Source: Gyromitra esculenta (lineage: Eukaryota > Ascomycota > Pezizomycetes > Pezizales > Discinaceae). Taken from it: DNA of 64,000 nucleotides. A program made the translations under genes and the position numbers. Numbering within the stretch: position 1 is the stretch's first letter; the number at the start of each line of letters is the position of its first letter. The DNA is taken from positions 806,001 through 870,000 of the forward strand of contig JBCAML010000020.1 in assembly GCA_038503075.1 (NCBI GenBank). The letters are read 5' to 3'. Positions 26,737 to 43,849 of this stretch are shown piece by piece. The notes under the pieces were generated by a model that was not told the origin of the DNA, did not search any database, and saw nothing but the letters and a program-made list of their open reading frames with translations.

Positions 26737-27097
26737 CCTGATCTTCTGGTCAATGCGTCTGGTTTTCCTCCTTGACTACCTGGGCGATAGGTAATCACAA
26801 AATCAAAGCGGGAAAGATATTCGGCCCATCATGCTTGTCGTCGGTTCAGTTGTTTTGTACTCATGAAGTATTCGAGATTTTTATGGTCACTGATCACATC
26901 GATAGGGTGTTTGGAACCTTCAAGTTCCGGGAGCCATTCTTCAAATACGCTGATGATAGCTAGCAGCTCCTTGTTCTATATCTCGTAATTGCATTCAGCG
27001 GGTGAATGCTTTTTCGAGAAAATGGCGACTGGGTGTAGGATTCCAGCGTCATCATATTGTGAGAGTACTCCTCCGGATAAGAAGTCAGAGGCATCTG
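26737..27097 (-). pseudogene. pol: RNase H fragment of O pol
   Basis: On the minus strand this reads [17 protein letters not shown]...[10 protein letters not shown]...NKELLAI...[34 protein letters not shown], the RNase H region of the same Gypsy family. It has TAG in place of the Tyr or Asp of the EIYDKE block and TGA in place of the Arg after RRQA. The left end abuts the E2 LTR and the right end abuts the Helitron. The missing upstream half of the gene resumes at 37079 with FDPDKKIIEET, so the Helitron split one gene. Confidence 0.85.
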
Positions 27098-27143
27098 TTA
27101 AACATTAAAAAAATTGAGTAGGTGTGTTGATCCTACTGTTTAA
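27098..27143 (+). other. Helitron 5'-terminal palindrome
   Basis: TTAAAC (27098-27103) pairs with GTTTAA (27138-27143), and AGTAGG (27117-27122) pairs with CCTACT (27132-27137) around a 9-nt loop. A 13-nt A/T-rich bulge lies on the left side only. The first two T may belong to the target. Confidence 0.6.
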
Positions 27144-28099
27144 TATAACGCTAAACCAGATTAGACACTTTTTGCCAGATTTGGAAGCACATCGATTTTC
27201 TTGATATTTAGATTTTATATATGATATCGCTATATGTATCAAAACACATGTTATTGTTATAATTACTTTTATAAGGTATCGTGAATAGTACATCATCCAA
27301 ATAGTTTGCTTTACAAATATTCAAATTCACTTTTGAACCTTTTCCCTTCATGTTCTTTCTTCGAGCCAATCCTAACATAAAATTTTAGTGTTTTTGTCTT
27401 CTCACTTCAATACTTCAACGCTAATTATTGCTCGATTCACCATTCTCAACAACATTCAAAAACCCTAACCCTTCGTGATGTCATTCCCCAAACCTTCACA
27501 AATATCATTCATATGCTTGGATACACAATCATACTAAACATTAGATTGTGTTGCTTTTTCAGCCTATGTCACCTACAACTTTGTTGTTGTATGAATAGTG
27601 TTGGACATCGTACATTTTGCACCGGATCGCTTCTTATTCTTTCTTTTTGCTCTGAATCAGCTGATTCACCTCATTCTTAGTTTGAGCTATCAACTCTCAC
27701 CATGTGCCTTTCCGCATTCAATTTCCTATTTTAGCCCGTGGCAAGTTATTTCCTGCTCGATTAAACCTGTTTGGTATGTAGTACGTGTGATCTTAGAGCA
27801 GTTGTTAAGCTCAATTGCACAGACATCTTTGATATCTGTACAGAATTGGCATAATTTTTGGTTTCTCTTGGTTTCGCTTATTGCTTCTCTTTTGGTGTGT
27901 ATGTTATAATTAGTTCCTGTATTATAGCTTTGGACATGACGTGTTAAATACCCCATGATTCCCACCTGGGTTTTCATTCTCCGCTTTCTTCTTCTTCTTT
28001 CAAACATTCGGGGTTCACTTCAGTCACCCTTACCTTTACCAACTCACACTTTTGGATGAACATTTTTCACACAGTATCAATTGTAAGTATTATTTCCAC
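27144..28099. other. Helitron 5' non-coding region
   Basis: About 950 bp of AT-rich sequence before the first coding frame. A CCCTAACCCT near 27462 looks telomere-like but is a single occurrence. No coding domain is recognised. Confidence 0.4.
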
Positions 28100-29347
28100 A
28101 TGCCTATTTATTATTCTTTCGTTGGCAGAATCTCCTCAATTTCTGGTGTGGGTGGATTCAAATCGGCAAAAGTCCTTCATCATGATGCAGATGGTGCATC
28201 CCATGAGGTGTCTGTGAAGTACTACCAAAACACCGACAACACTCTCTATCCTGATCGAGTATACCTATTTTATGGCACTGTTATCTTTTTCGCTGGAAAC
28301 ACTCCAAAGGTTGGCTACCATCTATCATCCTTTTGTATGCCTCATACTTGTTGATTATGCTAATAACACAAGTAGTACTCATTGATCCGTAATGTCGAGC
28401 TTATGAACAACGCACCTGCAGACAAATTTATTTCCAATGATCCCTTCTGTACATCAACTGTCACCATGCTCTCGGATCTTGAAGATATGCCCAATACAAC
28501 GTATTCTCACTTTCAAGGTCAGATGTATTAGTATAATAGTGAGGCTAAAGAAGATGTGCTGGTAATAGCTTAAATTATTCCACCCGTTAAAACAAATTTG
28601 ACAAAGCTAATTCGAATCCTGTAGTGCGCTCTCACCTTTTTGATTGACACCAAAGTCCTATTGTTCGCAAAGTTGGTTAAATATTTGCATTCGGGGAAAG
28701 TACTGGATATAGCTTTCAGGTATATTTATGAGAGTGATATAGATAGAGGTAAGATCACATCAATTACTCAACACCAATTTTTTAGCTCTCAATTTACTAA
28801 ATATTTGACATTATAGCATATGGGATAACTCACGCTATAAATTTCTCACATGATGGTGTTCCCAAAGATGACAAAGCCTCCATATTCCAAACTCCAAAGT
28901 CCAAACGCAAGGTTTTATTGGGCCCAGTCAATACCTCGCCAAGTCCAATGAAGATAATTAAGCCAGATCCAGACAGTGGTCCTGCAACACCTACAAAATC
29001 GGGAGTGTCTTCAAGCACAATACCAGGATCGCCAGGTCAGTTTCTCATATAACAAGTATTGTGGATTTTAATACTCACAACTCCTATTTGTAGGGCCCAT
29101 TCGAGCTAAGCTGAACTTTGGACGAGATGCTGATAGAAGCAATCTGTTCAAACGACCGGAAGCAAGAGCGAGTCGTACTCCTTTTCATAGTCCAGAGCGT
29201 TCCGATGATCAGCCATTACCTATGGAAACTATTGATATGGTTGAGTCTTCTTCGGACGAGGATGAATTGTCTGCTGCAGTGTCCATCCAGTCTTCAAAGT
29301 CTAAACGTGTTGGTAAAGGACAAGGGAAAGGAAAGGATAAAATGTAA
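28100..29347 (+). CDS. Helitron accessory gene, possible RPA/OB-fold-like protein
   Basis: A multi-exon plus-strand gene upstream of the Rep-helicase gene. The first exon reads MPIYYSFVGRISSISGVGG and continues to VKYYQNTDNTLYPDRVYLFYGTVIFF, a beta-strand-rich stretch of the kind seen in OB-fold single-strand-binding proteins. A middle exon encodes ISNDPFCTSTVTMLSDLED. The last two exons encode YGITHAINFSHDG..., basic and Ser/Pro-rich segments (TPKSKRKVLLGPV) and end in a Lys/Gly-rich tail (GKGQGKGKDKM). GT-AG boundaries are evident around 28312, 29035 and 29096; the intermediate exon borders are not settled. Some Helitrons carry RPA-like genes, and the position fits that, but the fold is inference. 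It could instead be an unrelated nuclear protein. Confidence 0.55.
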
Positions 29348-29456
29348 CAATAGAAGGATTGGATACTGTATCTTTTTTTATATTTTTTATATTTTCAATT
29401 TTGTCATGGTGGAATAATATGAGGGCTTTACTGATAGAGAAACTCAGTAAACCAAA

Positions 29457-32400
29457 ATGTCAATTCGCTTTCGCTCATATGTCCCTCATCGTACAACTAG
29501 CAACCAATTAGCAGGTGATATGATGAATATATCACAATCCATTGCATTGACAGCTGTACCATCAGATGATATCCTGATGGAATCTGGTGGCCTGTTTTCT
29601 ACTTTTAGTTTTGTTCAACATAGTAATCAACAATCTCGCCAATACGCAGAGTCTACCAGTAATAGAAGACCACGATTGGACAACATTAGAAAGGAATCCT
29701 CACCAAAAACCAACATCCACAGCTCCATCCAAAGCATCTTTAGCCCTGATGTACCTTTTCAACGACTTCTTTCTAGGTTTCGAACCACTTATGACACATA
29801 TTTCCCTGACTGTCCATGTTCTTTTTGTGGCATATTGATGCTTCCACGTCACGTCAACTGGATTGATAAGGATAATAACAAAATTTATCCTCTTGTAGCT
29901 GTTTTAGGCTTTTCAGTATCCGAGAGAATGAAAAGTGGATCACCACAAATCGCTGTCTGTACTCATTGCAAGACAACTCCCAGGGAACCACCAGCTGCAG
30001 GCCCATGGCCTGACATTCTTATCAGTTTGTCTCAACGCTCTAGGATTTTCCTAAGTCCTGTTTCTCTGCAGACAAGCTTGGGCCGCACACAAAGTCACTC
30101 TCAGACAATTAATCCTTATGCTACCTACCGCACTGTCACTGGTAAGATTTCCATCTCGTGTTCCAAATACATTGAGTGCTGAAATTAGGTAGGGAAGATG
30201 TCATTATTGAATAATGAACGTGCTGTTGCATTGTTTAGTGGCTGTATTGGTGCATTTTTGGAAAGTTCCAATAACTCGGTTGATCAAGGTCATGATATTG
30301 AACATCTGCAACACTGCCGTGACTGGCTATTAGCAAACAATCCACTATATCACAGATATGATGTTCGTACTCACTTGCAACGTCATCCAGTTCCCACTGC
30401 TTCTATCTCATCATTAGCTCCACCAGAAGAGTCACGTCCAATGAATCGTCCAGATCTTGTCCTCCATCCCTTTGACTATACATCAGCAACAGCAAACGAA
30501 GATCATCGTGGATTCAGACTGCCTGTTGGATCTTTACCAGGTCCATCTTCAAGCCCTGAACATCATCATATAGGTCTCACACGATCTGATCCTGCCTTAG
30601 AACATCTTTTGTTTCCTGTTCTCTATCCATGGGGTCAGGGTCACTGGCAGTTGGCTTCACGACAAGAAAGGATCCCTTATCACAACACTCGGTTGGTGGA
30701 CACCAAGACAAAGTTAAACTCCATCGTTTCACATTATCGGGATGACCACTACTGGCCTGCATGGACTTACATGGAAATTGAAGCCTCTCGCATCTTCCAA
30801 AATAATTGCAGATTAATCAAAGGCCAAGCTCAACGATCAGCAGATCAACGATATACTGTTTCTCAACTACTCCAACCCAGTCAATATGGTTCTTGGTCCA
30901 TCCTCAACGAAGAACACACTACCACGATTCCCAAGTTTATTCGAACTGGTGATACCTTTTTTAGTACTGCTGAGGCCAAGATTCGTTGTATGCTTCAAAC
31001 ATTTGGGGTTCCAACACTATTTGTCACAACAACCTTCTCAGAACGTTGGCCAAAGTATCAGCAAATTCTCCTTCAAACTGGCAACCATGATACCTTACCC
31101 TCCAATCGCCCATGGGATGCTATTCAATACTACTATGAACGTTGGCACTGGATCAAAACAACCTATTTTCGTGGATCAACTGTCTCAGGCTTTGGTCAGT
31201 TGCGGGAGCTGGTGGAACGTCATGAATTTCAACTGCGTGGTGCTATTCACACTCATTCACTTCTTTGGACAGAATTTGATCAATCAGAGTTAATTGGCAA
31301 AGCCTTTATCCGTGCAGATATTCCTGATCCAGAAATGGAATCTGAGTTGTATGAGCTGGTCTTGATGCATCAAATACATCACTGCCATATCCATCTTTGT
31401 GGGCGTGATGATACAATGACAGGCCCATGCCGTAAAGGCTTTCCTGCAGAATTGTCACCAATCACGTTCCAAAAGCCAGGAGAAGTCAGATACACATACC
31501 GCAGGCTGACTGAAGCTGATCAGTATGTTGTTCCGTACTGCCCACAACTTCTTCTCCTGTGGCAGGCTCATTGCAATGTCCAGTACTGCACTTCCGGAGG
31601 TCTGGCAAAATACATTTCAAAGTATGTCACAAAAGCTGAACCAAAATCTTTGGTTGATATCAGGAGTGAGAATCATACCACATCACATCTTCTTTCTCGT
31701 AGGATGGGTTCAATGGAGTGCATGGTTTTGTTATTGAGCTTTCCCATCTTTCAAATGTCGAGTGGCTGTTTGTATCTTCCAACCTCTATTCCTGCTGAAC
31801 GAACATCAGTTGTCAAACCTGCTTGGCTTCTCGAACAGCAAGCTGACGATGACACACCCTACTATCCCGATGCATTAGAAAAGTATTTTGCTCGACCAGC
31901 ACATCCCATGTTTGAGAGACTTACATATTTCCACTATCATTCTTATTATAAGCTGGAATGGAGAAAAAGGAGAAGTCAAGGCAATTATTGGCCTGACAAA
32001 AATGGAAACTTTGTATATGCCCGTAAAAAGGTAAAGTTGTGTCAAAGGTTTGCTTGAATATTCGTTAACATGGAATATAGCCTGTCCTGATCCGTACTGT
32101 TCATCGTCGCTTAGCTGATGGTGATTCATTCTTTTTCGTCAAACTTCTTCAACTGAAGCCATGGAGATCTGACGAAGAGATCTTTGGTAACGGCAACTTC
32201 ACTACTTACAAAGATCACATGTTAGCTCAGTTTCCAAATCTCTATCATGATTTGATGTCAACATACCAGTCAGGAATCCATCAACATTCACTTCAGCAAG
32301 CAGATATTTACCTGGAGCTCCTTGATATGATTGTCGATGGTCATTGCGTATCTGTGAAGTCAGTAATTCAAGACCAGTTAATTATGATGCAACGTTCTCC

Positions 32401-33780
32401 ACTCCCAGTCCCCAACTCAATGGCAATATTTGATCTTCGTGGAGATCAATACACGGCATACTGTAACATTACTCAAGCAGTAGCTCAAGCTCGCTTAGGC
32501 AGCCCTGGAGTGAAATTGTTTATTACTGGCCCTGCAGGTACTGGCAAGTCCTATTTGCTTCGTGCCTTACAGCAATGGTTTTCAAGTCAGCGTATGGAGT
32601 TCCTGTTACCTGCACCTACTGGAATAGCTGCCAACAACATAAATGGTCAAACGATTCACTGTGCCCTTCACATTGGTGGTCATGGAGATGGTGGTGGACT
32701 GAAATCGAACATCTTTCAGTCAACGGAAAAGCTTCACCAACTCAAAAAAGTCAGGGTTCTGATTATTGACGAGATATCCATGGTTAACTCTGACCTATTT
32801 GAATTCATATCCTCTCTCTTTGCTCGCCTTCACAACAATATCAAGCCTTTTGGTAACCTCCATGTATTGTGTTTGGGCGATTTGTTGCAATTGCCTCCTG
32901 TCACCGGAAAGAAGATTTTCTTTTCACCAATATGGAGGCTTTTCAGTCCAATATTTCTGCGGGAATCAATGCGTCAACGTGAGGATCCTGCCTTTTTTAA
33001 CCTATTAAACGATCTGCGCTTTGGCAACATCAGTCCTGCCAGCAGTGAAATAATTCAACAAAAAGTTCAAGCCTTTCACGCCCCTGCAAAAACCTACCTA
33101 ACAACTTATTTGGTCTCTTTTCGCCAAACAGCCAACAAAATCAACAATCTTCTTCTTGATACCCTACCTGACACTATGAGACATGTCTTCCATGCAATTG
33201 ATCGAGAGGAAGGACAACTTCTATCAAAGGAATCACATGAACGTACCTTCAAAAAAGGTACCAACTATCCTGTGGAGGTTGTCTGTGTACTTGGAGCAAA
33301 AGTAATGTTTTTAAATCACACATTACTCTCTGTTGGAGTATCCAATGGGACCTGTGGGGTGATTGTTGCCATTCGAGAAGAAGGACTACCGACTGTAGCA
33401 TTCCCTACTATTGAGGGTATACGGGTAAGATGAAAATATGCATCATTTACTAAACAGTCAGTAACTAACATGCAATGTAGATGGTGGAAATACAACTTGA
33501 TACAGTCCACTTTCGCAGTTATGGAATCCTATATTCCAGGACTCAGTTGCCAATTCAAAATGCTTTCGCACTCACGATCCACAAAACACAAGGGCTCTCC
33601 TTGAACAATATTAGCGTTGCATTAGATCAAACCCTTTTTAGTGCTGGTCAGGCGTATACTGCATTAAGTAGGGCCAAACGCTGGGAAGATGTCAGTATCT
33701 CCTGTTTTGATCCATTAGCAGTAAAATTTGACATTGAGGCTGTGAAAGAATATGAGAGATTGGCGGTGTTGGTATCATAA
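29457..33780 (+). CDS. Helitron Rep-helicase transposase
   Basis: This is the replication initiator/helicase that nicks, unwinds and transfers one strand during rolling-circle-like transposition. Four exons (29457-30141, 30193-32030, 32081-33424, 33481-33780) join in frame to 1,388 aa without a stop. The N-terminus has Cys pairs (CPCSFC, CTHC) like the zinc-finger part of Helitron proteins. The Rep domain has the HUH motif as HTH (H581, H583; in RGAIHTHSLLW) and the two-tyrosine motif KYISKYVTK (Y702, Y706). The C-terminal PIF1-like SF1B helicase has Walker A GPAGTGKS (K997), Walker B LIIDEIS (D1071) and the late motifs LTIHKTQGLSL and AYTALSRAKRW. No APE-type endonuclease domain follows. At 1,388 aa it is toward the short end for the family. 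It appears intact and therefore possibly active. Confidence 0.95.
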
Positions 33781-34381
33781 GTCATAGTAGTGTGTTCAGT
33801 GCTGGTGCCAATTGTCGTGAATATTTGATGTCGAAAAAATTAAGAGATCGAGAAGTGGAAAGTAGATGGTTATACTGTAGCTAATTAGTGGTAACAAGGA
33901 AAATAAGGTCAGGAGAGTTTAATAAACTAAGGGGTGATTAGTCTCAAGAGAATGGTAAATTGTTCCGGGACTGTTAAAATGATTGTGGTGGTAACAAGGT
34001 AACAGTCTCAAAGAAAGTAGAAAAACAGTATTTAGTAACGAGGAAGTAAATAGTGGTAGCCAGGATGCTGCATGTGGCAGTTGAAAAATTTGTAGTAAGG
34101 TAAAACCATGCAGATAATGCTGTTTGATGTTCTTGCTAAAACATTGGTAACAGTAATCATAATTATATTAGTAGTAGTAGTTGGAGATATAGAACACTGG
34201 CATAAAAGATATTCATTTTCTTGATCGTTAGTAGAGTAAACCTGTTCGAACAGCATCTAAATATAGAGGGTTAGTACTTACTGCCTAGTGCCATGCAATA
34301 TAACACACAAATGACCTGTTAACATTCCATACCGTAAAGACACTCAACTCGTAAATCACACATGAATACAAAGAAAATCCA
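33781..34381. other. Convergent intergenic region in the Helitron
   Basis: About 600 bp between the 3' ends of the Rep-helicase gene (plus) and the dioxygenase-like gene (minus). AT-rich, no coding support; it should contain both 3' UTRs. Confidence 0.45.
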
Positions 34382-36022
34382 CTAATTATTACATCTTGGC
34401 TTTTCCTGCCTCATACCCTTTTGCCTTTCCCTCTTTGCTTCTCGTAGCTCAGCTCTATGACTCTTTCTATCCTTTTTTTTCTTTGCCAATCCTTTTTCCA
34501 TTCTCTTTTTCCCTTTACTCCTACCATACTTTTGATTTCCTACCTTTTCATTGTATCGATCAAGTTTGTCAAAATTGCCTTTTGCAGTAAAAAGATCAAT
34601 AGAGTTCCTTGTCCCCTCTGTGATCTCTGTCACCTTGTGAGCAATTAGAGTTCCCAAAAACATAAAGCATTCACCAACGCCAACCTGAATCTTCATTTTC
34701 AGTTGCCATAAAACCAAATCTCCACCTTTGAATCCTGTCCCATATGGTGCCATTGCATTAAAACAAGTAGGCAGGTCCATCCAATCCTGATGTGTAGCTG
34801 ATACATCACCTTGCTGCCCTCTATTGATACAAACCCCATGCCAAGCACCTGCAGCAGGTGTTAATGCCTTCCCCGCTTTGGTTTTGTATGTTGCCATATG
34901 TTTAACAACAGGGCCTGTGAACTTCACCCACTGTTCTGGTGCTTGCATTCTCAGTTTGTAGGAGATTGCCTCAAATAGTTCCTGATTTTCCTTCAACCAT
35001 TTATCAGCAATAGGCTGATCCCTTTTTGTCTCTGTTGTCTCCATCATTCTCTTATTGTAATGAGCCCACACACCATAATGCCTTGTGTCGTATACACCCC
35101 GTGCAAGTGGATCTCCACCTCCCCCCTGTTTCCTGTTAGTGCGATCAGGCAGCAATGCATCAGATTCTGTCAAAGTTTGCACCTGTGATTTTGCAAGCTT
35201 GAATCTGTATCCCAATAAAACTCCTTCCTGATCACGGACTTCCAAATCTCCCATGCTAGAAGGGTAGAATGCAAAGGTATGAATGGCTTCTGTGTGCTCT
35301 GTGATGCTTGCCATCAACTTTTGTTCTCCATGATACTTTTCTTTCAAAAGTGTGTAAGAAATTGGAGAGCGAACAACAAAAATATTTTGGATCGCTTTCC
35401 ATGACTGGTAGATGGTAGTAACTTCTGTCTCAACAGTGCTGCCCTTAGGAATTTGATATGGGAAGTTGCTGTATTTGAATGCTTTGCTGTCCATCAAGTG
35501 ACGGATTCTGGATAGTGTATCATTCGAAGCGGAAGCGGAAAGGGATTTGGAAGCGGAGGCGGAGGCGAGAGCGGAAGCGGAAGCTACGGAAGCGGAAAGA
35601 GATTTGGAAGCGGAGGCGGAGGCGAGAGCGGAAGCGGAAGCTACGGAAGCGGAAAGGGATTTGGAAGCGGAGGTTGAGGCGGAGGCGGAAGCGGAGGCGG
35701 AAGCGGAACCTATGGAAGCGGAAGTGGAAGTGGAAGTGGAAGCGGAAGCGGAAGTGGGGGTGGAGGCGGAGGCGGGAGAAGTGGAAGAGGTGGAAGCGGG
35801 GGTGGAGGCAGTAGAAGTGGAGGAAGTTGAAGCAGAGGCTGAGGCGGAAGCGGAAGCAGGAGCAGTGGAAGAGGAAGCGGAGGCGGAAGCGGAGGCGGAG
35901 GTGGAAGCGGAAGCTGTGGAAGCGGGAGCTGTGGAAGCAGGAGCTGTGGAAGCTGGAGCTGTGGACGCGGGAGCTGTGGAAGTGGGAGCTGTGGAAGCGG
36001 AAGCGGAAGCGGAAAAAGGCAT
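34382..36022 (-). CDS. 2-oxoglutarate/Fe(II) dioxygenase-like protein, Helitron cargo
   Basis: An intact 546-aa single-exon frame. Residues 1 to about 170 are low-complexity Ala/Ser/Thr (SASASAS). The C-terminal part contains a double-stranded beta-helix dioxygenase signature: the HxD iron pair H411-Q-D413 in ATHQDWMD, then GTGFKGGDLVLW, the third iron ligand H462 in IAHKV, and R472 in EGTRNSIDLF, the expected 2-oxoglutarate-binding arginine ten residues on. The tail is strongly basic (KKKKDRKSHR). The spacing resembles the TET/JBP-like dioxygenases that are expanded in fungi and linked there with KDZ transposons; family members oxidise modified bases in DNA. Which substrate this protein has is unknown. 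The gene lies convergent to the Rep-helicase gene and upstream of the Helitron 3' end. It could also be an AlkB- or prolyl-hydroxylase-like enzyme. Confidence 0.75.
   Translation of the reverse strand: MPFSASASASTAPTSTAPASTAPASTAPASTAPASTASASTSASASASASSSTAPASASASASASTSSTSTASTPASTSSTSPASASTPTSASASTSTSTSASIGSASASASASASTSASKSLSASVASASALASASASKSLSASVASASALASASASKSLSASASNDTLSRIRHLMDSKAFKYSNFPYQIPKGSTVETEVTTIYQSWKAIQNIFVVRSPISYTLLKEKYHGEQKLMASITEHTEAIHTFAFYPSSMGDLEVRDQEGVLLGYRFKLAKSQVQTLTESDALLPDRTNRKQGGGGDPLARGVYDTRHYGVWAHYNKRMMETTETKRDQPIADKWLKENQELFEAISYKLRMQAPEQWVKFTGPVVKHMATYKTKAGKALTPAAGAWHGVCINRGQQGDVSATHQDWMDLPTCFNAMAPYGTGFKGGDLVLWQLKMKIQVGVGECFMFLGTLIAHKVTEITEGTRNSIDLFTAKGNFDKLDRYNEKVGNQKYGRSKGKKRMEKGLAKKKKDRKSHRAELREAKRERQKGMRQEKPRCNN
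35525..36010. repeat. GGAAGC/GGAGGC hexanucleotide-type tract
   Basis: About 490 bp made of GGAAGC, GGAGGC and GGAAGT units encode the Ala/Ser N-terminus of the dioxygenase-like protein on the minus strand. The plus strand is almost purely purine with scattered C. Within it a stretch of about 63 bp (AGCGGAAAGRGATTTGGAAGC) is tandemly duplicated near 35535-35670, showing expansion by slippage. Length probably varies between copies. Confidence 0.75.
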
Positions 36023-36359
36023 TTTAAATCTATTGGTCTCCTGTCAGCTTAATGCTGATGGTTGAATGCGGTATTGATGAGTAGCGAGTTTTTGCATGTT
36101 TGCCTCCTGCGAGAGGGTTCTTTGCCTTGACCTTGTGCACAGGAATTTTACCCTCTTTATTGAGCAGCGAGAAGTGGGGCCGGGAAGCCTTACACCCAGG
36201 CGGACCGTATTGCCACGCGTCACCGTCAAAAATTGACGTTGTAGTAGCCAGGTCCCTGACCAACAGTACGTATACCATTGGCGCGGTCATAGGAATTCTC
36301 AACTAGCTTGCTACACAAAGAACGCGAATGGAACTAGTACCAAGGCCGAAGCCAAAGCC
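36023..36359. other. 5' flank of the dioxygenase-like gene
   Basis: No supported coding region. A minus-strand frame at 36302-36030 is open for 90 codons but has no recognisable motif. The promoter of the dioxygenase-like gene should lie here. Confidence 0.35.
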
Positions 36360-36875
36360 ATACAGGGACAGGGACAGGGACAGGAAAGAGGTTGCGAGCG
36401 AAGAAACTGACAGGAGAACGTTAAACGAACCTTGAAGTATAATAAAAGCAGTTGGTAGGCAGAGAATAGAAGGCAGGCGGAGCGCGGTAGGCAGGCGGAG
36501 CGTTGTAGGCAGGCAGGCTGAGAGTCGTTTGGTGGGAACTGTGGGGTTAAGGTTTTGGGGTGGGCTGCTCGACCAGAGTGCTTGGGCGGGGGCTGCTTGG
36601 GCGGGGGCTGCTCGGGCGGAGGCTGCTCGGGCGGGGGCTGCTAGGGTGGGGGGAAGCTGGCAGTCGAGAGCTGCTCAGGCGGGGGCTGCTTGGGCGGGGA
36701 GAAGCTGGCAGTCGAGAGCTGCTCGGGCGGGGGCTGCTCGGGCGGGGGCTGCTAGGGCGGGGGCTGCTCGGGCAGGGGCTGCTTGGGCGGGGAGAAGCTG
36801 GCAGTCGAGAGCTGCTCGGGCGGGTGCTGCTTGGGTGGGGGCTGCTTGGGCGGAGGCTGCTCGGGCGGGGGCTGT
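36360..36875. repeat. G-rich minisatellites near the Helitron 3' end
   Basis: Three blocks: GGGACA repeats at about 36363-36388, AGGCAGGCGGAGCG repeats at about 36470-36525, and a 15-bp unit GGGCGGGGGCTGCTC repeated about 18 times at 36585-36870, with three copies of an insert (GGGAAGCTGGCAGTCGAGAG type). The plus strand has many G3-5 runs and could form quadruplexes. Confidence 0.75.
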
Positions 36876-37027
36876 TAGAGAAGAGCTTGAGGCGTAGGAG
36901 AAAAGCTTTGGATCGAGAGTTGATGGGCGGGCATAAGATGTGGTGATGTATAGGCGAGGTGTTGACTTCGTTAGGTGTGGCTGGAGCAAACAGAAAATCG
37001 AAGGACGGGTAACATGCCAAGGATAGT

Positions 37028-37075
37028 TACCCTGCCCTGGCCCAGCGGTCCCACAAATAGGGTATCAAAAACTAG
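37028..37075 (+). other. Helitron 3' terminus: hairpin plus CTAG
   Basis: TACCCT (37028-37033) pairs with AGGGTA (37059-37064) around a 25-nt GC-rich loop, followed after 7 nt by CTAG (37072-37075) and host T. A hairpin about 11 nt before a CTRR end is the standard Helitron terminator. The loop is longer than usual. Confidence 0.65.
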
Positions 37076-37078
37076 TTT

Positions 37079-38772
37079 CCTCAATAATTTTCTTGTCCGG
37101 ATCAAAGTGGATAAGAATGGGAGCAGTGGTAAAGGCATATTTAAGATTTTCGAAGGCTATATCCGCCTCAACGGTCCATTCAAATATGATTCCTTTCTTT
37201 GTGAGTGCTGTGAGGGGAGAGGCTAGCTTGGAGAATCCCAGGATGAACCGACGGTAGAAATTGGCGAAACCTAAGAAGGCTTGGACATCATTTACGCTCT
37301 TTGGTGTTCCCCACTCTCGGACGGCTTTGAGTTTCTCTTCGTCCATTTTAATGCCACCAGGGGTGAGGATGAGCCCTAAGTACTTAGTTGTCTGTACTTC
37401 GAACTCACATTTCTCCGGCTTAAGCAGGATGTTATTGTCCTTGAGTGTCTGGAGTACCTTCCGTACATGAGTCTGGTGTTCCGCAAATGTATCACTGTAA
37501 ATCAGAATATCATCCAGGTAAGCCATACAGAATATATCCAAATATTCAGTAAGACAGTCATTTACGAATCGCTGGAAGGTTCCGGGCGTATTGGTTAAGC
37601 CAAATGGCATGACTTGGTACTCATATAGGCCGTAGCGGGTACGGAAGGCCGTTTTCCACTCATCTCCTTCTGCAATGCGTACTTGATGATAGCCGTCTCG
37701 AAGGTCTAGTTTGGTATACCATTGTGCTTTGGCTAATCGATCTAGTGTTTCTCTGATAAGTGGGGAGGTATATCGATCTTTGACAGTAATTGCATTTAGG
37801 CCCCGATAGTCCACGCAGAGTCTTAAGGAGCCGTCAGCTTTCTTTACAAAGAGGACGGGGGATCCGGCAGGGGAAGAGCTGGCGCGAATGAAGCCCTTCT
37901 CTAAATTATCCTCAATGTACTTTTTGAGGACAATGAGTTCTTCTCGGGACATTCCATAGAGGGGGCCGAACGGCGCGTCTTTCCCTTCCATTAGCTGTAT
38001 TTTGTGATCATACGAGCGTCGTGGAGGTAAGCCTTGAGCTTTGCTTTTATCAAACATATCCAGAAATTCATGGTACTTGGCAGGTATCCTTGCTTTCCAT
38101 TCTTCTTTGCTGGTCTTTTTCTCTAGGATTTTGTTAATCTCGTAGAGGGACATGGCATAGGCTTGAGAAGAGCGTTTTCGGGTGAGAGTCATGAAACTGG
38201 CAGCGCCAATGAATGATAAGTTTAATCTGGGAGGAGTGGGGATCGAGGGTATTGATACGGGGGGTAGGTGAGGGGCACAACGGGTGGTGCAGAGTTTAGA
38301 GTTAAACTCAATGCGTTTATCGGCGAAGTGAAGGTGGACATCATGGTGGTTCATCCAGGGGATTCCTAACACTAGGGGATAGTGTCCAAGTTGTGTAACA
38401 AAGCAGGGGGCTTGTTCTTGATGCTGTTGGATGGACAAGTTAATTTTGGTGATGTGAGTAATGTCTCCTGAGGCAACTGGGCGGCCATCGATTACTTCAA
38501 GTTGTCTGGGTATTTTTAGAGGAGAAAGTGGAAGGGAGTGGTGACTCGCAAAATTCTTGTCGATGAATGCGAATCCAGAGGCTCCAGTGTCTAGTAAAGC
38601 ATGTGTTTTGATGATTTTATTATTATGGGAAATATCGCACGAAACTACAAAATGTTCCCCATTTAACTGATCCTCCAAGCTTATACTAGAGACTGAAAAC
38701 CCGGAAATTGAAAACGCAGACAAAGAAGAAGAAATTGGAACCAAGGCAGGGTCACTGGTCAGCCTTGGTTGA
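37079..38772 (-). pseudogene. pol: O pol: protease and RT, cut by the Helitron
   Basis: The minus-strand frame enters from the frameshift site and stays open to 37079. It contains protease (LLDTGAS), and RT with VDYRGLNAI, FGLTNTPGTF and the catalytic YLDD, ending at FDPDKKIIEET, where the Helitron begins. No stop occurs in this part, unlike the RNase H fragment at 26737-27097. Comparison with E1 shows that about 45 percent of pol is here. Confidence 0.88.
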
Positions 38773-41404: not shown

Positions 41405-41683
41405 TCAGGGTTTGAGAGCTTTTTATGTAACGCGCTCCTAGGTGAGCGTAGGGGGTAGGGAGGTGTCTCTTCGGCAGTTAGCGAGCTGTTGGTATAGGGG
41501 TTCCTTAATTGAGCTTTAGCGAGGTCAGGAGCTCGTCTATATGGCAGCAGCAAGCAGCCAAAGCAGGAGCTCCCAGGCGTGTTCTAGTTGGGGGTAGGAA
41601 GCTCTAGGGGGTAGGGAGTGCATCTCTTTGGCAGGCAGCAAGCAGTCAAAATAGGAGCTCCCTAGGCAGGCTCTAGGGGGTTG

Positions 41684-42136
41684 TCTCAAGGAGTGAGGTT
41701 TTGTCAAGCCTTTTGGTATCCCCAAAGGTGAGCAGTGCTACTTGAACAATCCCAAGTGAGAAGAAGTATACCGTGATTCCACAGGCTCTACATCTACAAA
41801 GAGTCAAGGTGACTCTGACAAGGGCACTACGTTGATGTAGTGGCGGGATCCGGATGTTATCCAAATCATGACAGCGAAGATGGACTACTGGAATCCAGGC
41901 TTGTATTTGGAGGATACAAGGAGAGTGACAAATAGAAGACGTTGCTTCAAGAGAAGAGAAGGAAAAGTACAACAAGAGAGGAAAACCCTTCGCTTATATA
42001 CCCACATTTCGACTCTTCAATGACAAACATATGACTCATGACAAAACAAGTCAACGGAAACAAAAGGAATATAGGTGAAACACGACAACCATGTATCCAT
42101 GTACCTAACCAACTAACGAAACATCCATCCATGAAA
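41684..42136 (-). repeat. Solo LTR family B in the minisatellite
   Basis: This 453-bp copy starts TCTCAAGG and ends CCATGAAA. The complement of the TATA stretch (CGCTTATATACCC) is near 41992. The flanking pentamers are GGTTG and GGTCA, which differ at two transition positions, so the target duplication is only tentative. Confidence 0.8.
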
Positions 42137-42773
42137 GGTCAGCAGGTGTCTCTTTAGTAGGCAACGAGCTATCGATATAGCAGCTTCCTAGGTAAGCTGT
42201 TGGAGGGTTGGGAGGCGTCTATATAGCAGTCTATAGAGCTCTCTCCTAGGAGCTTGCTAGGGGGAACAGGAGCGCGTTTATATGGCAGTCGGTGAGCAGT
42301 TGATACAGGAGCTCCCTAGGCAAGCACTAGAGGGGTAGGGAGCTCATCTATGTGGCAGGCAGCGAGCTGTCAATGTAGGAGCTCGCTAGGGGGGTTAGGA
42401 GCGCATCTATATGGCAGTCGGCAGGTAGTCACCATAGGAGCTCCCTAGGCAAGCACTAGGGGGTAGGGAGGCATCTATATAGCAGTCAGCGAGCTGTGAA
42501 TATAGGAGCTCCCTAGGTGAGCTATTGGGGAGTAGTGAGTGCGTCTATTTGGCAGGCAGCAATCAGTCAATGTAGGAGCTCACTAGGCAAACTCTCGAGG
42601 GGCAGGGAGCTCGTCTATATGGCTGGCAGCAAGCAGTCAATATAGGAGCCCTAGGAGCTCTCTATAGGGGTAGGGAGCGTGTCTCTTTGGCAGGCAGTGA
42701 GCTGTCCATATAGGAGCTTCTGAGGCGAGCTATAGGAGGGTAGGGAGGCGTCCCTTTGGCAGGCAGCGAGCTG

Positions 42774-43507
42774 TGTAATGGATCTACAATACCGTTACCT
42801 GCAGTGAAGCATAATAGTACCAGGCAAGCAGAGAGGTAGTAAGGATCAGCATGAGTGGTGTAGCTACCACATGTTAGAGGATACCTGCTATCCTGCTGTT
42901 CCGATGGAGTGGAACCAGCGAGAATAATATTAGCAAACAAGCCAATGATATATCTCCGGTGATACCAAACACAGGAAGCTCCTGTGGTGGCGTTCCCAAC
43001 CCATCTGTGCATATACTAACGGCCCAGAGTCACTGGTGCGGCAATAGGGAAACTATTAAGTGCAGGACACCTCACATGCAACAGTAGACTGATCAGCGCC
43101 GATTCCTGCATCCAGCATAGGCATGGCATGCAGCTGGCGGATCTAGAAGGTCTAACTGGACAGAACAACCGAGGAGTGCCTGAGACCACCGAAGTGATCA
43201 TTAGCTGAATCCTGAGGTGCCCTGCTCGCAATAGCTTGGCATGTTCTCAGGGCCTTGACGGGCCCCCAGCAGAGTAGAACAGAAAGAGGACGGCGAATCA
43301 GCAGCACTATAACGATAGTGCATGACCCCGCCACCTGTTGCTCTTCTTCCCAGTCTCATCAGACAGAATACTACTGAGTAGAGCCCTTAAGATTATTGAG
43401 TACTTTGCACGAAAATACTCTTAACATCTCAACCTGATTTAGTATTTGCAACGGCCGTATTCCTATACCTATTCCCACTACAGAGCAGTAGGACTACCCC
43501 CGTTACA
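42774..43507 (+). repeat. Solo LTR family D in the minisatellite
   Basis: This 734-bp LTR begins TGTAATGG and ends CCGTTACA, with target duplication AGCTG at 42769-42773 and 43508-43512. It is the LTR type of element F (58089-58825), in the same orientation. Confidence 0.9.
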
Positions 43508-43849
43508 AGCTGTCGATATAGGAGTTCACCAGGCGGGCTCTAGTGGTGTCAGGAGTTCGTCTATATAGCAGTCAGCAAGCACTGGATACAGGAGCTCCCT
43601 AGGCGAGCTTTAGGGTGATCAGGAGCATGTCTATATGGCAGTCAGCGAGGTCTCTATAGAACTGCCTATATAGAGGCTTCATAGGTGAGCTTTTGGAGGG
43701 GGTTTATATGGCAGCCAATAGAGCAGCTTCCTAGGGGGGTTTCGGGGTGCTGATGGGGACGAGGAAGGAAGAGTTCAGGGGTTGGAGCGAAGGGAGGCAT
43801 GACTAAATGCTCTAACTCCCGTGAGTTAGGGGTCTCTAGCGAGGGAATC

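Follow-up and report, generated by a model that had tools for sequence, protein, structure and literature searches.

The 64,000-nucleotide stretch of Gyromitra esculenta DNA analysed here (contig JBCAML010000020.1, positions 806,001 to 870,000; hereafter the window) contains a Helitron transposon that carries, convergent to its Rep-helicase gene, a second gene for a predicted TET/JBP-like dioxygenase. We consider it probable that this is an autonomous fungal Helitron in which the second gene is fixed, and that its product, a TET/JBP-family Fe(II)/2-oxoglutarate (2OG) dioxygenase, would counter silencing of the element by oxidizing 5-methylcytosine (5mC). In other organisms TET enzymes oxidize methylated DNA. 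The comparisons described below establish the anatomy of the element, the co-mobility of gene and Helitron and the predicted fold of the enzyme, including the residues for iron and 2OG; they also show that the gene bears signs of selection and that the copies decay in a CpG-type manner. A counter-defence role is plausible and would agree with the last two.

Within the 47.1-Mb genome, which comprises 23 contigs (C1–C23), the Helitron has at least 24 5′ ends and at least 19 3′ ends. Eighteen end pairs are spaced 9.6–15.7 kb apart; five 5′ ends are partnerless, and the nineteenth 3′ end, on C15, pairs only across 42 kb. The earlier note on this DNA had proposed a search for the dioxygenase gene between the ends of other copies, and a match is present there in all 18 two-ended copies. 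Sixteen of these copies have 4,168–4,187 bp between the Rep exon and the dioxygenase gene; the distance is longer in C14 (4.6 kb) and C19 (10.6 kb). We rejected the idea that the gene is a mobile element of its own inside the Helitron, since the repeat begins and ends where the Helitron does and every two-ended copy holds the gene. Candidate copies without the gene were likewise set aside: the C6 copy and that at C4:1661094-1665370 have Rep only, but both are missing the element's 3′ portion, the former ending inside the gene (52 bases remain) and the latter before it, with neither contig among those listed for 3′ ends. This check covered two of the five partnerless 5′ ends, the others being the second C4 end, C19:547447 and C2:602387. 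Neither outcome that the earlier note had named as contradicting it, a fold other than a beta-helix or a gene absent from other copies and residing in its own mobile element, was found.

The pairing extends to diverged elements. A relic on C9 retains a helicase exon (63–75% identity in three pieces) and, 2 kb on and in the opposite orientation, the dioxygenase (48%). Beyond this genome, the dioxygenase has its best relative at 55% and Rep has its best at 74%; both lie on 6,799-base contigs from the same source, a coincidence of which roughly 0.04 would be expected by chance in the two lists; just one of the 27 dioxygenase relatives' contigs equals a Rep relative's contig in size. The pairing of Rep with the dioxygenase is probably present in another species too. 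In the Gyromitra genome itself, 20 of the 21 Helitron_like_N matches fall within the Helitron family or its C9 relic; the remaining one (C21:854637) belongs to a distant Helitron, whose Rep match (31%) lies 1.7 kb away, and the dioxygenase matches on C21 lie at least 0.37 Mb from it.

The dioxygenase frame is open through all 546 codons, as the earlier note had read it. A protein search yielded 20 relatives with 39–55% identity over residues ∼166–546 (E 4e-53 to 1e-128), the named ones being from Tuber borchii, T. aestivum and T. magnatum. Residues 1–165 are unconserved in all 20 and may form a tail that varies, or may not be translated; the conserved domain spans residues ∼166–546. Seven further proteins, each closely related, came from a profile search at E 10, which extended to no distant family. 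Of the resulting 28 proteins (query included) surveyed for the residues at H411 and D416, P0027 ends before the stretch, leaving 27, of which 24 have HQD at the H411 place and three (P0012, P0016 and P0017) have RQD. Since RQD replaces HQD in these three, the enzymes are probably inactive. D413, H462 and R472 are invariant across the 21 aligned proteins.

These residues, for which the earlier note had given the positions correctly, form the HxD...H...R series of the TET/JBP family. A profile built from the query and 18 relatives (19 sequences, P0021 and P0016 being left out of the alignment) matches NgTET1 with E 0.006 and aligns H411, D413, H462 and R472 with the same residues of that enzyme; their occurrence is therefore not due to chance. 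The predicted model of residues 166–546 is a double-stranded beta-helix, closest to TET enzymes. Among the 50 structural matches listed, all 16 TET-family entries stand above every AlkB, FTO and PHD entry, with more residues aligned. Together, the modelled fold and the profile match bear out the earlier suggestion of a TET/JBP-like enzyme, and we regard that assignment as well supported by prediction. A single-sequence search with the window protein found no solved structure at E 5, and profile matches of intermedilysin type, which cover 50 residues lying outside the catalytic domain, were treated as chance. No relative of the dioxygenase was among the 53 pattern matches of a viral-contig scan. 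Scans of the genome with Tet_JBP and 2OG-FeII_Oxy_6 gave one match apiece, neither of which matches the Helitron gene and both of which contain internal stops: C17:1015945-1016316 (Tet_JBP, PF12851) is a more usual TET/JBP sequence with HRD and GDIIMF, and C23:13137-13376 (2OG-FeII_Oxy_6, PF20515) lies 13 kb from the contig start.

We assigned D416, F478 and A480 to places in the base pocket from the NgTET1 profile alignment and equal spacing. In known enzymes NgTET1 Asp234, TET2 Asn1387 and CMD1 Asp350 contact N4 of 5mC, the base is stacked by NgTET1 Phe295, TET2 Tyr1902 or CMD1 Phe416, and N3 is held by His297 in NgTET1 and His1904 in TET2, a place occupied by Arg393 in CcTET, where R393H drastically reduces activity (PMC7854593, PMC11040006). 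Of 27 proteins, 26 have Asp or Asn at the D416 place, and F478 does not vary among the 21 aligned; the family as judged from these alignments thus retains a conventional 5mC pocket, one contact of which is lost in the expanded lineage. The A480 place is His in 22 and Arg in two of 25 proteins, with Ala solely in the window protein. Among the element's own copies, all 17 that were read have Ala; the C9 relic has His and a broken C4 relic Tyr.

Signs of selection were sought in 17 copies of the gene, excluding C14 (in two pieces), C15 (a 217-base fragment) and relics, and in 11 Rep sequences with at least 500 bases in one alignment, using shuffles that preserved CpG context. Dioxygenase variants found in more than one copy had a ratio of nonsynonymous to synonymous polymorphism (pN/pS) of 0.35 (15 of 28 silent against 7.5 expected, P 0.001), compared with 0.94 for single-copy variants and 0.67 for all variants (P 0.021). 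Exon 2 of Rep gave 0.44, 0.75 and 0.61 for shared, single-copy and all variants, respectively. Shared variants have mostly been carried through transposition. The pattern as a whole fits a gene that selection maintains during spread of the element and that drifts later, albeit on small numbers; three C12 copies lie close together, and some shared variants may reflect local duplication rather than transposition.

Decay of the copies was followed in alignments of at least 1,000 bases across the first 8,430 bases. C-to-T variants occur at 35% of CpG sites as against 3.5–5.5% of other C sites, and in the gene alone at 16 of 30 CpG, 16 of 122 CpC, 12 of 149 CpT and 8 of 187 CpA sites, a pattern that fits deamination of methylated CpG. 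Repeat-induced point mutation favours CpA, and CpA is not enriched here, which led us to reject it as the origin of these variants. The genome has C5-cytosine methyltransferase matches at four loci (L041, L042/L044, L043/L046 and L045), one with internal stops, and these are in line, together with the CpG-type decay, with a host that would silence by methylation.

In the mechanism that we propose, the host would methylate repeats at CpG and the enzyme would oxidize 5mC on the element to 5-hydroxymethylcytosine (5hmC) and beyond; the Rep-helicase would thereby remain transcribed, or new copies would avoid re-methylation. The base contact to N3 (or O2) of known TETs is now alanine in this lineage, so that affinity for, or choice of, substrate may have shifted. 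Several observations weigh against this proposal. The fold model draws on 19 sequences and the other four of the five models have predicted local distance difference test scores from 76 to 60, and a Pfam search at E 1 gives no family for the window protein. Stops number 3 across the 17 copies against 5.2 expected, no significant depletion (P 0.20), and the conserved region is open in ten copies and broken in seven. A480 abolishes a contact that is kept as His or Arg in all 24 database relatives. Furthermore, any protection would be incomplete because copies still decay at CpG, and CpG depletion of the element (0.50) does not differ from that of the window's right side, which is rich in repeats (0.51; left side 0.84).

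The alanine gives most weight to the alternative, on balance unlikely, that this is a DNA enzyme but not a 5mC eraser, and that with A480 it modifies another base (thymine or N6-methyladenine, 6mA) or makes a stable 5hmC mark. Its presence in all 17 of the element's own copies that were read, against the His or Arg of the relatives, the effect of R393H at the corresponding place of CcTET and the varied chemistry of the TET family, as in CMD1 and CcTET, all point that way. D416 is nevertheless retained, and the corresponding residues of conventional TETs give preference to 5mC and exclude 6mA (PMC7854593, PMC11040006); Lys481-Gly482 beside A480 are also the same as in NgTET1 and could compensate. 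A broader conjecture, likewise on balance unlikely, is that the family is a fourth and as yet undescribed HxD type of transposon-borne TET/JBP, long tied to one Helitron lineage, whose expanded form with its His-to-Ala change would act on a base or oxidation state other than 5mC.

Helitrons are noted for gene capture (PMC5148889), and the broken copies and near-neutral single-copy variants are what a captured passenger, carried without use, might leave. We think this very improbable, given that selection on shared variants resembles that on Rep and that the pairing recurs in the diverged C9 relic and probably in another species. Less likely again is that the enzyme belongs to a different family of 2OG dioxygenases, of the AlkB, FTO or prolyl hydroxylase type, and works in repair or on RNA or protein. 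Such enzymes share the superfamily fold, and Pfam 2OG-FeII_Oxy_3 matches 11 of the 19 aligned proteins (best E 3.4e-5), more strongly than Tet_JBP; the ranking of the listed structures and the profile match to NgTET1 favour TET instead. Oxidation of 5mC in the service of the Helitron remains our preferred reading.

Features of the element are collected in the table below. Eleven copies on nine other contigs were compared with the window and place the 3′ boundary at 37075–37077, where the trailing TT is assignable to either side. The Helitron is flanked by the two halves of one Gypsy element, whose uninterrupted site is present in Gypsy relatives on C8, C17 and C22; because these empty sites read (G/T)G^TTTC, the TCTG preceding the 5′ end is target sequence. 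The empty site is precise and has no long target duplication, although a 2-bp TT duplication is compatible with the data. The 5′ end is TTAAACATT in all eight read, preceded by A in five and G in three, rather than the TC with A^T insertion of Helitron1; the 3′ end is CTAG followed by TT in all 12 read, agreeing with the CTRR then T of that group. The clean ends claimed earlier are thus real on both sides, as the empty sites and shared boundaries attest, but the canonical 5′ TC is lacking: a Helitron1-like 3′ end is joined to a non-canonical 5′ end. Of the asymmetric terminal inverted repeats of Helitron2/Helentron elements there is a single 10-nt inverted match, at 5′ position 95. The 91-nt stretch around the 3′ hairpin folds no better than its shuffles (z −0.16). 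Flanks vary from copy to copy, except that the 3′ flank of the C13 copy resembles that of one C16 copy, and C10 that of C22.

The Rep-helicase gene was intact, as claimed earlier, giving a frame of 1,388 aa after removal of three GT-AG introns of 50–56 bp. It matches PF14214 (E 8.9e-14) and PF05970 (E 4.8e-31), a Rep domain with HUH motif and tyrosines fused to a PIF1-type helicase as in the Helitron superfamily; we take IHTH to be the HUH motif, KYISKY to hold the tyrosines, and five further motifs to be those of PIF1-type helicases. Upstream of Rep, at 27959–29345 of the window, several open stretches resemble exons of a further element gene, and GC-rich 15-bp repeats on the 3′ side (36560–36870) apparently differ among copies. 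To the right of the Gypsy element, 41450–43750 is a degenerate array of ∼70-bp repeats (TAGGAGCTCCCTAGG...).

Table. Features of the Helitron and its surroundings, in window coordinates.
Feature	Position	Strand	Basis or remark
Whole Helitron copy (TTAAACATT...AAAAACTAG), in Gypsy element	27098..37075	+	repeat boundaries common to copies on other contigs, empty sites
5′ terminal hairpin, TTAAACA...TGTTTAA with inner AGTAGG/CCTACT	27098..27143	+	inverted repeats within first 120 bases
Rep-helicase gene	29457..33780	+	exons 29457-30141, 30193-32030, 32081-33424, 33481-33780
TET/JBP-like dioxygenase gene, 546-aa frame, convergent to Rep-helicase	34382..36022	-	open frame, relatives
Conserved dioxygenase region, residues 166-546, modelled double-stranded beta-helix	34385..35527	-	
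A480, place of NgTET1 His297 / TET2 His1904 / CcTET Arg393	34583..34585	-	alignment to NgTET1
R472, 2OG-binding arginine	34607..34609	-	invariant 21/21, aligned to NgTET1
H462, distal iron ligand	34637..34639	-	invariant 21/21
D416, place of NgTET1 Asp234 / TET2 Asn1387 / CMD1 Asp350	34775..34777	-	D 20, N 6, V 1 of 27
H411-Q-D413, iron ligands	34784..34792	-	aligned to NgTET1
Ser/Ala/Thr repeat tail, residues 1-165	35528..36022	-	without conservation in relatives
GGGTAAC/GTTACCC hairpin, ∼43 nt upstream of 3′ end	37007..37032	+	inverted repeat
Interrupted Gypsy element, reverse transcriptase side	37076..38744	-	part of its other side at 26737-27097

Transposon-borne demethylases, if true, would be a eukaryotic counterpart to phage anti-restriction. 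The element is multi-copy and fairly recent, and it is the combination of intact copies, a natural base-pocket change and CpG decay readable as a methylation history that makes the counter-silencing idea testable.

Among fungal Helitrons, the non-canonical, Helitron2-like elements of Fusarium (PMC5148889) are likewise autonomous, 5–11 kb long and equipped with a 5′ hairpin; their terminal sequences differ, the window Helitron ending in CTAG like Helitron1, and the available part of that paper mentions no TET gene. Helitron-N1_AN of Aspergillus nidulans (PMC4289320) also carries 2OG-dioxygenase sequence, in its case a piece captured from a xanthine 2OG-dioxygenase gene, but is non-autonomous and the fragment belongs to another dioxygenase family. 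The window protein is like NgTET1, TET2 and CMD1 in fold, in HxD...H...R, in the Asp/Asn contact to N4 and in Phe/Tyr stacking, and differs from NgTET1 and TET2 in having Ala480 for His297 and His1904; its identity is ∼15–17% to NgTET1, 10–12% to TET2 and 8–11% to CMD1. CcTET, which goes with the AG-type TET/JBP of the Kyakuja transposons (Coprinopsis), a different kind of transposon, is 10–13% identical. The hallmark of the AG type, Gly or Ser three residues past the Asp ligand (Gly331 in CcTET; PMC12730594, PMC7854593, PMC11040006), is absent from the window protein, which has Asp416 there.

The closest precedent is that of Kojima 2025 (PMC12730594), who described TET/JBP genes in eleven transposon lineages, including Helitron1 families in Puccinia graminis and five Pezizales species and Helitron2 in Agaricus bisporus, and proposed escape from methylation-based silencing. 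By title and abstract opening, this was the only paper on TET/JBP genes in Helitrons among the matches listed. The earlier note's statement that no Helitron with such a cargo was known is therefore superseded; both the counter-silencing idea and the combination of Helitron with TET/JBP are already in print for fungi, Pezizales included. The Pezizales (PE) type of Helitron1 likewise joins a Rep-helicase to an enzyme of TET/JBP fold. A further likeness is that the named relatives of the window protein, known here from their proteins, are all from Tuber. Canonical Helitron1 begins with 5′ TC and the window element with TT. As described, the PE type is defined by HxE, whereas the window protein has HxD and HxE occurs in none of the 27 family proteins. 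Set against that description, either these proteins form a separate HxD type beyond those in the available part of Kojima 2025, or the HxE hallmark is not general, and the element may be identical with one of the families of that paper; by the PE hallmark as described, what sets it apart from the published TET/JBP Helitrons is the active site.
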